From: Polyangia bacterium
Lineage (GTDB): Bacteria; Myxococcota_A; Polyangia; Nannocystales; Nannocystaceae
Reading direction: 5' to 3'
Length of the DNA: 64,000 nt
Assembly (NCBI GenBank): GCA_030429545.1
Contig: JAUIFF010000004.1
Span: 372,001 to 436,000 of the forward strand
A model generated the notes under the pieces. It had not been told where the DNA came from. It ran no database searches and saw nothing but the letters and a program-made list of their open reading frames with translations. Each line of letters begins with the position of its first letter. Positions within the stretch are counted from its first letter, which is position 1. A program made the translations under genes and the position numbers. This document shows positions 1-64,000 of the stretch, piece by piece.

Positions 1-354
1 CGATGTGGTGTGCATGTCGCCGCCGGCTTGAGTGCCCTGCCGCGGCTCGTTTTGTATATACAGCGTATCGAGCGCTGCCACGCACGGGGTAGGTAATTGC
101 GCATACATTTTATTTTGAGCGACCGTGCGACAGGCCACGGGCGAGGGGTTGTCACGGGAGCGTTCCAGCCCGGTCCCGGCAAACCTGCATCTCCGCGCGG
201 TCGTGACGTGAAGATTGGGGTGGGCGCGGGCCATGAAAATGTGTAAGATGATCGGCTAACACCAGCCGTGCGGGGCTCGGGTCACCCCGGGCGAGACAGG
301 CTGGAACCTCGCCTCACTAGGGCCCCCGACAGCCCGTGAAAGGATTCGTATACC
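1..354. other. Non-coding left edge upstream of add
   Basis: I see no convincing gene here. The stretch holds one exact TGYANNTRCA palindrome (TGTATATACA at 53-62). A purine-rich GAAAGGA at about 338-344 lies a suitable distance before the GTG start of the adenosine deaminase gene. No clear sigma-70 promoter pair was recognised. Confidence 0.4.
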
Positions 355-1467
355 GTGACGCAACTATCCCAAGAACTGATCGCCCGCCTGCCCAAAACCG
401 ACTTACATGTCCATCTCGACGGGTCGTTGCGTTTACAAACGGTATTGGATTTGGCCAAGGAGCAGGGCCTGACACTGCCGGCGGATTCGACCGAGGGCCT
501 GCGCAAACACCTGCGGCTGGGCGAAAACACCGGGTCGCTGGTCGAGTATCTCAAGGCGTTTGATGTCACCTTGCTGGTGTTGCAGGAGGAAAAGGCGCTG
601 TATCGGGCGGCCTACGAGCTCGCTGCCGACGCAGCCGCGGAAAACGTCCGCTACATGGAAGTCCGCTACTCGCCAATGCTGCACACGCGCCGGGGGCTCA
701 AGCTCACGACCGTGGTCGAGACCGTGTTGCAGGGGCTGCACGATGCCCAGGCTGCCCACAACATCGAAAGCCGGCTCATCCTGTGTGGGATTCGCAACAT
801 CTCGGCCGCGTCGTCGCTGCGGATGGCCGAGTTGGTGGTTGCCTACAAAAACCGTGGTGTGGTCGGGTTTGACCTCGCCGGTGCCGAATACGACTATCCG
901 CCCAAGGACCACCGCGAGGCGTTTCGCCTGGTCCGCGAAAATAACGTCAATGTCACGATCCACGCCGGTGAGGCCTATGGCCCGGCTTCGATCGCCCAGG
1001 CCCTGCACGTGTGTGGTGCCCATCGGATCGGTCACGGTTGTCGCCTGCGCGAGGATGGCGAGCTGTTGCGGTATGTCATCGACCACCGGATCCCGCTCGA
1101 GTGCTGCCCCTCGTCCAATGTCCAAACCGGCGCGGTGCGGAGTATGGGCGACCACCCGATGCGGCTTTACTACAACCTAGGCGCCCGGGTTACGGTCAAC
1201 ACCGACAATCGCTTGGTCACCGACACGACCATGAGCAAGGAATTATTTATCTTGCATAGTCAACTCGGATTTGACTTCCACGAGCTGTGTCAGGTGATTT
1301 TGGCCGGGTTTAAGAGTTCGTTTTTGCCGCACCACGAAAAACAACGGATGATGCGGGCGATCGCCCTGGAGCTCGAGCAAATCTCGCGGGAGTTCGACGA
1401 GCTCGAGGAGGTACAGCTCAATACTTCGCCGGCGGCCAATACAACCTCGCCGGGCAAGGCCAGCTGA
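355..1467 (+). CDS. add: Adenosine deaminase family protein
   Basis: This 370-residue amidohydrolase probably deaminates adenosine or deoxyadenosine to inosine or deoxyinosine in purine salvage, in the cytoplasm. The TIM-barrel metal site is visible: KTDLHVHLDGSLR near residue 15 gives the HxH zinc ligands, HAGEAYG near 203 carries the His ligand and catalytic Glu, and RIGHGCRL near 224 carries the catalytic His. CCPSSNVQTGA near 249 and VNTDNRLVTDTTM near 280 complete the active site. The start is a GTG 11 bases after an AAAGGA ribosome site. It appears monocistronic, and a degenerate repeat array begins just after the stop. A sister specificity such as adenine deaminase cannot be excluded from sequence alone. 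Confidence 0.93.
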   Translation: MTQLSQELIARLPKTDLHVHLDGSLRLQTVLDLAKEQGLTLPADSTEGLRKHLRLGENTGSLVEYLKAFDVTLLVLQEEKALYRAAYELAADAAAENVRYMEVRYSPMLHTRRGLKLTTVVETVLQGLHDAQAAHNIESRLILCGIRNISAASSLRMAELVVAYKNRGVVGFDLAGAEYDYPPKDHREAFRLVRENNVNVTIHAGEAYGPASIAQALHVCGAHRIGHGCRLREDGELLRYVIDHRIPLECCPSSNVQTGAVRSMGDHPMRLYYNLGARVTVNTDNRLVTDTTMSKELFILHSQLGFDFHELCQVILAGFKSSFLPHHEKQRMMRAIALELEQISREFDELEEVQLNTSPAANTTSPGKAS

Positions 1468-61287: not shown

Positions 61288-64000
61288 GATCGATCCTCCT
61301 TGAGTGATTGCTGTAGCACCTCGACAGCGTCCAAAATATCCCGAATCTCGGCTCCGGGAGTTGTTACCTGAACCTGGGTACTCACTAGATAACGCTCCTC
61401 ATCACTCAGGTGATGGGCATCAAATAGGACAACGGGTGTGGCCGTTGTCGCGGGGACGTCGCGCAGACTCTCGATAAACCGCAGGCTGCCATAGGTACGG
61501 GCTTGCCGACCGAGGAGTACAAGTTGTGGCAAATGGTCGACCACGAGTTGTAGCCCGTGTTCGTGTGTCTGCGACCACAAAACGAAAAACCCAGCCTGTT
61601 CGAGCGCGGTATGCAAGTTGTCGTTTGCTTCGTCGCTGACAATCACAACTTTCGTAGCGTCGCTGTGTTCGCTCGCCCGAGGTTGGTCAACGGGAAACTC
61701 AACAATAAAACAGGAGCCCTCACCTGGAATCCCACTACTTTTGAGCGAGACATGACCGCCGTGCAGCCGCGTGAGCTTGGCGACCAGCGCAAGACCTAGG
61801 CCGGTGCCTTCTTGCTCCCGTGTATACGATGAATCGACCTGCTCAAACTCGCCAAAAATTTTGGCCTGGTCCTCCGGCTTAATGCCGATCCCATTGTCTT
61901 GTACACTCACTTGCACACGCCGTGGTAGGTCTCCCGGCTCAACAATCTGTGCAGACACATGTATGCTCCCGCCTACTGGCGTAAACTTGATGGCGTTACT
62001 CAGCAGATTGTACATCACCTGCTTAAACTTGGCCTCGTCTAAAAACACGTTTGGCAGGTCTTCGGGATAATCCTGTGCGAGTGTAATTTCCTTGCGACCG
62101 AGTAGTGTTGCGACGATCGAAGCGGTTTCGCCAATCGCAACGGGTATGGCCACCTGTCGACGCTCGAGCACCACGCGGCCCGACTCGACCTTCGAGAGGT
62201 CGAGAATATCGTTGATCAGCTGCAACAGGTGGCGACCGGAAACCAGGATGTTGTTGACGTAACGGGCTTGGCGATCGTTGAGTGCGCCAAACATGCCCTG
62301 TGCGAGCACCTGACCAAAACCGATAACGGCATTGAGTGGTGTACGCAGCTCGTGGCTCATGTTGGCCAAAAACTGGCTCTTGGTGCGGTTGGCAGCTTCG
62401 GCGAGATCGCGGGCACGCTGCATCGCTGCGGTCGCCTGCTTTTGTTGGGAAACGTCGCGAAAAAGTCCAATGCGATGGATGATTGTGCCGTCGTCGTCAC
62501 GCACTGGCGCGGCGCTCAGTTCGACCCAAAGCGGTCTGCCCAGCTTACTCAAGATCATCAGCTCGACGATCGCCGGCGATTGACTTGCAAGTGCATCAAT
62601 CAACGGCGATTGATGGCTGGTGTCGAGCCCCGCGCGCAAAAAGTTGACCGGACGGCCCAGGGTGTACGCTTGCGAATACCCCGTGAGCAACGTGAAGGCT
62701 TCGTTGACATAGAGAATTTCCGGCCCCTGTGGCCCCTGTTGGGCATTGACGATCAGGACCGGATCGCGGGCGTTGACCGAGACAGATTCGAGTAGCCGCA
62801 GGCGTTCGACCACGCGTTTGGCCTCGGTGATGTCGCGCAGGTACGCGGTGTACATCGGTTGTCCGGCAACTTCGATACGGACGACCGAAAGCTCGGCACA
62901 GATCTCACGGCCGTCGGCACACACGGCCGGGACTTCGATGCGCCGCCCAAGGATATTCCCCTGACCAGTTGTATTTGCAACTTCAAGTCCCTGGTGATGG
63001 GCCGACCGGAGGTGGGCAGGTATGATCAGTTCGGCCATATCGCGTCCGAGAACATCCGCTCGCTTGTAGCCAAACGTTTGCTCCGCTGCGGGATTAAAGT
63101 CGACAATGGCTCCGCTCGCATCAATTGTCATCACGCAGTCGAGAGCCGACTCCAGGATCTTGGCCTTGCGCAGTTCGCTGGCCACAACCTCTTGCTCAGC
63201 CCGTTTGCGGGTGATTCTGCCGGCGACGCCCGAACAAAAAAGCTCGACAATCGAGAGCTCCGACGGGCTTAGTTTTCGGCCCTCGGTGCGATAGTCGAAG
63301 CGAATATGGCCAAACGTCAGACCGCTATGCTGGACCGGTACGGCTAGGATAGCTTGCACATCTTCGGCTTGGAGCAGCTCTCGTGTCGGCTGTGGGAGGT
63401 CCTGACTAACTCCTCCCACGCGATCGCCTGCTGCTAGGGCTTCGTGCCAACTTTCGGGCAACAAAATTGTGCTGGCCGTGTCGAAACCTGGCTTGGCCCA
63501 ACTGGCGAGCGGGGTGTTGGCTCCATCCACGCAGATACACACCCGGGTCGCTAGTAGCGCTTGCCCCATCACTTTCAGTGCAGTTGCAAGTGATTCAGCC
63601 TCGCCATCAGTGACCAGCAGGCAACGCATGGCCTCGGCGACACTGGCAAGTAGGTCATCGCGGGCAAGGTTTTCGAGTTCGGCAATGCGTTGCTCGGTTA
63701 TATCCCGAATCGTGCCGGACATACCGGTGAGCTCGCCATGCTCTACAATTGTCTGTACACTTAATTCACAGGTGTGGATATACCCGGAGGTATTCACAAA
63801 CGGAACTTCGAAAGTCGCTTCGGTTTGGTGCCCTTCGAGCAGGGGAACCAGTGCACCCCAGACCTGCTGATGGGCGCGCGCGTCGATAAACTCGGGCCAA
63901 CGACGGCCGATTGAATCGGCGACATCGACCCCGGTGATCCGCTTCCAGGCCGGATTGAGCAGGGTGATAACCCCCGCCGCATCACTGCGAAAGACAACCT
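61284..64000 (-). CDS. Multi-PAS/GAF sensor histidine kinase with degenerate receiver, 5' end beyond window
   Basis: The frame is open to the right window edge, so the true start lies outside; a GTG at 63797 is internal. At least 900 residues are visible. In order they are: a PAS domain cut by the edge (VITLLNPAWKRITGVDVAD), a GAF domain (ESLATALKVMGQALLATRVCI to LSIVELFCSGVAGR), and a PAS domain (ALDCVMTIDASGAIVDFNPA). A further PAS (DPVLIVNAQQGPQGPEILYVNEA), HisKA (MSHELRTPLNAVIGFGQVL) and HATPase_c (YNLLSNAIKFTP, DNGIGI, GTGLGLALV) follow. The C-terminal 130 residues look like a receiver in which the phospho-Asp position reads LVLLGRQA, so it is probably a pseudo-receiver. It starts the three-gene phosphorelay operon. 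Confidence 0.9.
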   Translation of the reverse strand, partial: VVFRSDAAGVITLLNPAWKRITGVDVADSIGRRWPEFIDARAHQQVWGALVPLLEGHQTEATFEVPFVNTSGYIHTCELSVQTIVEHGELTGMSGTIRDITEQRIAELENLARDDLLASVAEAMRCLLVTDGEAESLATALKVMGQALLATRVCICVDGANTPLASWAKPGFDTASTILLPESWHEALAAGDRVGGVSQDLPQPTRELLQAEDVQAILAVPVQHSGLTFGHIRFDYRTEGRKLSPSELSIVELFCSGVAGRITRKRAEQEVVASELRKAKILESALDCVMTIDASGAIVDFNPAAEQTFGYKRADVLGRDMAELIIPAHLRSAHHQGLEVANTTGQGNILGRRIEVPAVCADGREICAELSVVRIEVAGQPMYTAYLRDITEAKRVVERLRLLESVSVNARDPVLIVNAQQGPQGPEILYVNEAFTLLTGYSQAYTLGRPVNFLRAGLDTSHQSPLIDALASQSPAIVELMILSKLGRPLWVELSAAPVRDDDGTIIHRIGLFRDVSQQKQATAAMQRARDLAEAANRTKSQFLANMSHELRTPLNAVIGFGQVLAQGMFGALNDRQARYVNNILVSGRHLLQLINDILDLSKVESGRVVLERRQVAIPVAIGETASIVATLLGRKEITLAQDYPEDLPNVFLDEAKFKQVMYNLLSNAIKFTPVGGSIHVSAQIVEPGDLPRRVQVSVQDNGIGIKPEDQAKIFGEFEQVDSSYTREQEGTGLGLALVAKLTRLHGGHVSLKSSGIPGEGSCFIVEFPVDQPRASEHSDATKVVIVSDEANDNLHTALEQAGFFVLWSQTHEHGLQLVVDHLPQLVLLGRQARTYGSLRFIESLRDVPATTATPVVLFDAHHLSDEERYLVSTQVQVTTPGAEIRDILDAVEVLQQSLKEDRS

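Follow-up and report, generated by a model that had tools for sequence, protein, structure and literature searches.

A palindromic word repeated thousands of times in one myxobacterial genome: a possible self-recognition signal, with a second dialect in the same family

Why a single short word should come to fill some genomes is a question of long standing, and it is raised by a 64-kb stretch of DNA from a Polyangia bacterium (the window; bases 372001–436000 of contig 18, in an assembly of 8,595,434 bases and 39 contigs) across which a sequence-only reading had reported 40 exact copies of the degenerate palindrome TGYANNTRCA. Our recount agrees, with 40 copies from 53 to 63588 where 100 dinucleotide shuffles gave a mean of 2.12 and a maximum of 6; the one-mismatch relatives also recur as described (TGTGTATACA four times, TGTTTATACA and TGTTGATACA twice each). 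That reading had set beforehand a check for a genome-wide count near expectation. Run here, it leaves the excess standing: 4,915 copies in 8.6 Mb (about 0.6 exact copies per kb) against 412 for the same pattern read backwards and counted in identical DNA. We tentatively take TGYANNTRCA to be a word by which cells recognise self DNA (for uptake) and which molecular drive has spread.

The excess belongs to this genome. Comparable enrichment was found in none of the 589 other Myxococcota genomes counted (317 genomes from the class and 377 from the phylum, 590 distinct with our own), and the only other genome of the same genus, G001, holds 387 copies against 609 reversed. The next-highest raw ratios examined were those of G118 (833/109; 39.5% G + C content, GC) and G058 (519/120; 39.6% GC), set aside as carriers because their GC is low and their observed/expected ratios under a third-order Markov model are just 2.0 (190 kb) and 1.5 (319 kb); other raw counts were 230/66 in G034, 135/30 in G377 and 579/179 in G337. 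Our genome appears to be that of a distant Nannocystis relative within Myxococcota: two Nannocystis strains (53–54% identity) are among the top named hits of one encoded protein, in a search from which records very near the window may have been absent.

The word is the core of a larger site. We read 1.746 of the 8.595 Mb base by base and the remainder by counting only. In 850 kb, the exact TGYA-N2-TRCA spacing has a Markov observed/expected ratio of 13.4, where N1, N3 and N4 give 0.47, 0.37 and 0.41 and N0 gives 2.7. Substituting T0 or G1 loses most of the excess (0.68–1.39), and variants at word positions 2 and 3 are still 1.2–2.9-fold enriched. A dyad weight matrix, fitted by expectation-maximisation to the 1.746 Mb with symmetry imposed, describes a near-symmetric dyad of about 24 bp, with strict TG..CA, graded Y and A, and A/T-rich flanks about 10 bp from the centre. 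From the outside inwards it runs through these flanks to position −4 (T favoured, G avoided), −1 (C avoided) and TGYA NN TRCA, and then mirrors itself. A second patch of information lies 8.5–11.5 bp from the dyad centre, and A/T enrichment stops at about 12 bp (0.57 at 11.5, 0.40 at 12.5 and 0.30 at 13.5 bp). The matrix was trained on the DNA in which it was counted, with reversed sequence and G001 as controls: scores of 17–18 occur at 230 positions against 1 in the reversed sequence (1.746 Mb), and no G001 position reaches 15 (297 kb scanned). Freeing the orientation over the inner 26 bp raises the held-out log-likelihood per site by only 0.14 (−26.53, from −26.67 for the symmetric model) and leaves the two flanks nearly equal (A/T 0.80 and 0.76 at 8.5 bp; 0.69 and 0.66 at 10.5 bp); we therefore regard it as a near-symmetric site. 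Its central dinucleotide is TA in 43 and AT in 6 of 471 sites. Such a site may be the footprint of a DNA-bending dimeric protein, and a graded footprint 24 bp long is easier to reconcile with a dimeric DNA-binding protein than with a strict methylase site; the palindrome itself would point to a symmetric reader. The N0 form TGYATRCA (68 copies against 24.9 expected under the same Markov model) and TTGT-N4-ACAA (6.9-fold above codon shuffles once exact words are masked) are also in excess in the 1.746-Mb sample of this genome, probably as weaker forms of the TGYANNTRCA site.

How, then, is the site written into DNA that must also encode protein? By gene calls from our own codon-score caller, coding and intergenic DNA are alike in density (0.538 and 0.586 per kb), and intergenic copies number 93 against 11 of the reversed word. 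Inside genes the favoured reading frame is nnT GYA NNT RCA, which puts T0, A3, T6 and A9 at third codon positions; it holds 281 sites in 850 kb, where 20 synonymous shuffles average 3.55, and the two remaining frames hold 77 against 29.0 and 17 against 9.75. Across 1.746 Mb, 635 of the 11,835 places where the protein permits the word in the favoured frame are filled, where independent codon choice predicts 6.9, and copies of the word take in 9.8% of all GCA codons and 10.5% of all GTA codons.

Conservation at orthologous sites, a check proposed by the sequence-only reading, did not appear. Among 61 reciprocal best hits with G001, 27 sites fell in pairs of 45% identity or more. Setting aside 3 without alignment and 1 with an indel leaves 23 aligned G001 positions, none of which carries the word. 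The same is true of three window sites in mnmG, with the word in none of 18 aligned stretches from 6 genomes. Mismatches in G001 peak at T0 (18/23), A3 (20/23), T6 (20/23) and A9 (18/23), the next being position 8 (11/23), and all four residues are identical at 2 of the 23 sites; the mnmG relatives frequently retain the residues with GCC or GCG codons, all four being identical in 3 of 18. The codon-frame excess and the placing of these mismatches show that sites arose largely, not wholly, via third-codon-position changes. The nearest genome compared is not close (66–79% identity in the better-matching stretches) and lacks the word genome-wide; the non-conservation is therefore lineage-specific gain and not an artefact.

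Copies also keep their distance from one another. Matrix sites (score at least 12, the cut-off used) number 2,056 in 1.58 Mb, or 1.3 per kb, and their pair correlation in successive 100-bp bins is 0.40, 0.63, 0.84 and 0.89, then about 1 beyond. For the 582 exact in-frame sites, a null that redraws sites 200 times among the codon opportunities of their own 10 kb predicts 23.4 pairs at 12–100 bp, where 10 are seen (1 of 200 draws as low); there are 12 against 23.8 at 100–200 bp (no draw as low) and 21 against 24.8 at 200–300 bp, this test showing clear avoidance below 200 bp only. Four groups of four sites, considered as clusters that might mark an autoregulated reader gene, were uninformative. 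The background of about 14 matrix sites per 10 kb is interrupted by sparse stretches such as C18:100–130 kb (2, 1 and 0 per 10 kb), C4:130–190 kb (2–7) and C1:50–70 kb (6 and 2). The C18 island (L131–L133, about 99–131 kb) has 56–59% GC and almost no TGYANNTRCA; it encodes a 1,981-residue SNF2-helicase/Eco57I-methylase protein that matches phage DNA methyltransferase and DarB-like antirestriction families, the other 7 of its 8 proteins scanned giving no family match. The C1 stretch (L089–L090) has normal GC and encodes an ABC transporter with two permeases, a phosphate-selective porin, a lectin/tectonin protein and two radical-SAM genes; it was possibly acquired from a relative lacking the word.

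The family holds a second word of this kind. A palindrome scan of G001 against codon shuffles (297 kb) revealed TGTC-N6-GACA, with 27 copies against 2.8, a few of them forming a short tandem array. It is visible by ratio alone: ranking by z-score returned words of GC periodicity, and a free motif fit on G001 was dropped, having collapsed into codon periodicity. Counted in 29 family genomes, our own included, TGTC-N6-GACA reaches 2,690–3,957 copies against 21–42 reversed in six of the seven genomes of the sister genus g12 (G012, G020, G023 and G025–G028) and 522 against 29 in the seventh, G012. Counts are 693/28 in G001, 320/8 in G017, 283/24 in G009 and 621/98 in our own genome, and the remaining 18 genomes show 0.8–4.9-fold over reversed; in 59 genomes sampled from the class, the top ratio outside the family is 139/27. 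The words thus follow clades, with TGTC-N6-GACA in all of g12 (weaker in G012) and more weakly in g1 and g9, and TGYANNTRCA in our own genome only. Two Nannocystis contigs (L009 and L011, 40 kb) hold 9 copies of TGTC-N6-GACA, and because this density resembles that of g12, the group is probably Nannocystis; two of the four L009 copies lie in DNA alignable with L011, and both are present there.

The g12 genomes supplied word counts only, and we read the flanks of TGTC-N6-GACA in G001 and the two Nannocystis contigs. At 9.5–10.5 bp from the dyad, the A/T fraction is 0.54–0.58 in G001 (26 sites, background 0.29) and 0.50–0.61 in Nannocystis (9 sites, background 0.28); TGYANNTRCA flanks at the same distance in our own genome have 0.57–0.61 (background 0.39). 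Since this second palindrome is A/T-flanked at an equal distance, two words of similar design exist in one family, which has at least two dialects of A/T-flanked palindromes; most family genomes were counted for these two words only, and other dialects may exist. These recall the dialects of uptake sequences in how they behave and the iterated palindromes of cyanobacteria in their symmetry, and the sister-genus dialect favours a self-recognition signal. In our own genome TGTC-N6-GACA is 3.8-fold enriched over codon shuffles (124 against 32.9), perhaps as a relic of an ancestral dialect; the window has four copies (18715, 37099, 51286 and 57533) and the reversed word once. Searches of open-access full texts, a scope that leaves most subscription papers outside it, found no paper on either word, and the papers listed there on iterated palindromes in myxobacteria and on palindromes or uptake words in Nannocystis included nothing on point.

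Chi and the FtsK-orienting polar sequences (KOPS) are short, chromosome-wide repeated words and are polar; TGYANNTRCA, with the same count on both strands and no polar strand bias, is unlike them because a palindrome cannot give direction. The likeness to the cyanobacterial palindrome HIP1 drawn by the sequence-only reading holds for behaviour (dispersed, self-complementary, about 0.6 per kb, in and between genes, lineage-specific). As described in the parts of PMC4390886 drawn on here, HIP1 and the alternate highly iterated palindromes (HIPs) are likewise palindromic and genome-wide, vary in sequence by lineage and have palindromic extensions past the core, at a density of the same order (1000–2000 per Mb; here about 570 exact or 1,300 matrix sites per Mb). 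HIPs are, however, GC-rich, contiguous or nearly so, and methylase-linked in that account, whereas TGYANNTRCA is A/T-richer than its 61% GC genome, split by N2 and graded, with A/T flanks one helical turn off. Described in 1995, HIP1 was still said twenty years later, in 2015, to be of little known significance (PMC4390886). Uptake signal sequences (USS) of Pasteurellaceae and DNA uptake sequences (DUS) of Neisseriaceae resemble our word in number, with copies in the thousands at roughly one per kb, and in their grading about a strict core. Excerpts of the relevant reports extend the likeness to A/T-rich flanks in USS (PMC1626085) and clade-wise word types in both (PMC1626085, PMC3630211); to our avoidance within 200–300 bp, since two USS within 100 bp give no added uptake (PMC7811141); and to our sparse islands, mobile elements being DUS-poor (PMC7371117). 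The known uptake words have an oriented, non-palindromic core, unlike TGYANNTRCA and TGTC-N6-GACA. Molecular drive through preferential uptake of self DNA is held to explain the Pasteurellaceae and Neisseriaceae words (PMC1939737, in part).

Which process filled this genome? Explanations by local mutation bias, by an artefact of coding, by a mobile element of 10 bp or by ordinary regulator or terminator sites are very improbable, and largely refuted. The large excess survives the synonymous-shuffle and intergenic controls, and short-range avoidance of neighbours is not expected of local mutation bias. Target-site duplications, which would speak for a mobile element, do not exceed chance at 3–4 bp and are missing at 7–9 bp, with a slight excess at 2 bp (77 against 57.6) and 3 against 1.4 at 5 bp. 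Nor are sites concentrated at promoters, as transcription-factor operators would be: of the three gap types, divergent gaps have the lowest density (1.26 per kb, close to the 1.16 of coding DNA, against 2.86 in convergent gaps). Density does peak directly after stop codons (5.26 per kb against roughly 0.8–1.5 elsewhere), as regulator or terminator sites might; we read this peak as composition because the reversed control rises there by a similar factor (0.36 against about 0.08 per kb, or about 0.03–0.12).

In a HIP-type ratchet, an orphan DNA methyltransferase would methylate the palindrome, and strand-directed mismatch repair would create and protect copies until one lay within repair range. 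We consider this unlikely, although palindromy and Y/R degeneracy resemble a type II methylase site and, according to PMC4390886, the cyanobacterial genomes studied in which words are highly overrepresented encode one or more putative methylases for those words, and the model also predicts saturation within about 1 kb. Our genome has four PF01555 methylases above cut-off. Three have 60–71% orthologues in word-less G001 (compared through four of its nine PF01555 matches). The fourth, a beta-class SPPYW DNA methyltransferase (L250:9919–11289, minus strand), has no close relative in 16 other family genomes (best 44% over about 84 residues) and would be the best methylase candidate if the methylation model is right, but its 59% homologue in G064 occurs without TGYANNTRCA excess (189 against 277). 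One D12-type methylase is common to most relatives, and a search that did not cover all methylase families found no C5 methylase, the C18 island holding an Eco57I-type domain. Strict methylase sites, moreover, are not graded and have no outlying second information patch of the kind seen here. An abundant sequence-specific nucleoid protein that organises the chromosome, with about one site per 0.8 kb each kept by weak selection, would suit the dimer-like 24-bp footprint with its flexible central steps, the even density (about 14 per 10 kb) outside sparse stretches, the short-range avoidance and the indifference to gene position. This too is improbable: within one family the genera have entirely different words, which is unexpected of a core chromosome protein, no candidate protein was found, and no nucleoid protein is known to us to influence the choice of codons across a genome.

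The graded near-symmetric footprint, indifference to position, largely silent accumulation, short-range saturation, sparse islands and dialects are together what molecular drive by self-DNA uptake would be expected to leave, and this is our tentative reading. The site of about 24 bp would be read as double-stranded DNA by a dimeric, probably DNA-bending protein; same-lineage cells would capture (or recombine) free DNA bearing it in preference to other DNA, and alleles with a chance site would tend to displace site-less alleles. The word would thereby spread wherever protein coding permits, until some site lay within a few hundred bases, and lineages would drift to differing words, TGYA-N2-TRCA in ours and TGTC-N6-GACA in the sister genus. 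Reader protein, DNA bending, uptake and drive are all things we infer. The sequence-only reading had offered a methylase, a nucleoid protein, repair and uptake; none is proven, and the dialect leans towards self-recognition. Several points weigh against drive by uptake. None of the known uptake words is a palindrome (AAGTGCGGT, ACAAGCGGT and GCCGTCTGAA, as given in PMC1626085). Neither of our words is strong in 18 of the 29 family genomes, and the sparse C1 stretch carries ordinary transport genes with no obvious mobile element. A ComEC gene, the one competence gene searched for, is present but is non-discriminating, because 10 of 11 relatives searched have it too.

Wider still, and a shade more doubtful than uptake in our own lineage, Nannocystis and its relatives might form a third bacterial group, after Pasteurellaceae and Neisseriaceae, that marks its own DNA with thousands of copies of a self-recognition word; it would be the first to use a palindromic one, with genus dialects and with TGTC-N6-GACA replaced by TGYA-N2-TRCA in our lineage. 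One family now offers two similarly designed palindromes, together with footprints that are graded, histories that can be followed at the level of codons, and a rule of distance between sites. Some TGTC-N6-GACA carriers are named Nannocystis strains, so the two dialects are testable, each controlling the other. Self-recognition, if true, would mean lineage-specific DNA exchange in these myxobacteria.

Within the window, 30 of the 40 exact copies lie inside predicted genes and 10 between genes; the first T is at codon position 3 in 25 of the 30, with 4 and 1 in the other frames. Matrix sites number 83, against 10 in the reversed window. The copies, with matrix scores, are:

53..62, TGTATATACA, between genes; exact word, score 12.8
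5812..5821, TGCACATGCA, in gene 5135–6622 (+), T at codon position 3; score 18.3
7299..7308, TGTAGGTGCA, in predicted gene 6754–8838 (+); score 15.9
8891..8900, TGTAACTACA, between genes; score 15.9
10336..10345, TGCAGGTACA, in gene 8927–10450 (+); score 14.8
10891..10900, TGCAGTTACA, between genes by our calls; score 10.7
11134..11143, TGCAGATACA, between genes; score 15.3
12093..12102, TGCAAATACA, in gene 11190–12602 (−); score 12.1
12583..12592, TGTACATGCA, in gene 11190–12602 (−), T at codon position 2; score 19.9
13713..13722, TGCAGATACA, in gene 12871–13986 (+); score 17.7
15150..15159, TGTACCTGCA, in gene 14157–16031 (−); score 16.3
17546..17555, TGCAATTGCA, in gene 17310–18092 (+); score 13.2
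18793..18802, TGTACTTACA, between genes; score 16.2
23438..23447, TGCAGTTGCA, in gene 23262–24578 (+); score 15.2
24583..24592, TGCATATGCA, between genes or at gene edge; score 11.9
28713..28722, TGTATTTGCA, between genes; score 18.9
31425..31434, TGTATATGCA, in mnmG (31102–32910, +); score 15.0, absent in 6/6 aligned relatives
32277..32286, TGCAGGTGCA, in mnmG; score 16.6, absent in 6/6 aligned relatives
32448..32457, TGCAGATGCA, in mnmG; score 18.0, absent in 6/6 aligned relatives
32917..32926, TGTAGGTGCA, between genes, directly after mnmG; score 17.4
34243..34252, TGCACCTACA, in gene 33538–34512 (−); score 11.6
38460..38469, TGCATTTACA, in kinase gene 37145–38758 (+), T at codon position 2; score 12.6
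38661..38670, TGCATATGCA, in kinase gene 37145–38758 (+), T at codon position 2; score 13.8
39180..39189, TGTATATGCA, in predicted gene 38763–39629 (−); score 16.1
41305..41314, TGCAAATGCA, between genes; score 14.0
42922..42931, TGTAGGTGCA, in Hsp70-type gene 41686–44160 (−); score 13.7
43438..43447, TGTATGTGCA, in Hsp70-type gene 41686–44160 (−); score 17.2
45975..45984, TGTATGTGCA, in predicted gene 45549–46277 (−); score 11.9
46871..46880, TGCAGCTGCA, in kinase gene 46312–49854 (−); score 4.9, weak, may be chance
47470..47479, TGCACGTACA, in kinase gene 46312–49854 (−); score 8.8, weak
48196..48205, TGCAAGTGCA, in kinase gene 46312–49854 (−); score 15.4
49066..49075, TGCATATGCA, in kinase gene 46312–49854 (−); score 15.4
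52506..52515, TGTACTTACA, in gene 52057–53442 (+); score 15.4
54100..54109, TGTAGATACA, between genes or at gene edge; score 20.7
56483..56492, TGCAAGTACA, in gene 54912–56945 (+); score 19.5
57792..57801, TGCATGTACA, in gene 57390–58361 (−); score 17.6
60055..60064, TGTATTTACA, in gene 59783–60886 (−), T at codon position 1; score 14.8
62586..62595, TGCAAGTGCA, in gene starting at 61284 (−); score 13.9
62970..62979, TGTATTTGCA, in gene starting at 61284 (−); score 16.4
63579..63588, TGCAGTTGCA, in gene starting at 61284 (−); score 15.5

Three window genes (5135–6622, 8927–10450 and 24588–25643) encode DsbA-like thioredoxin proteins, two of them matching DSBA over two stretches and one carrying a fused VKOR domain.

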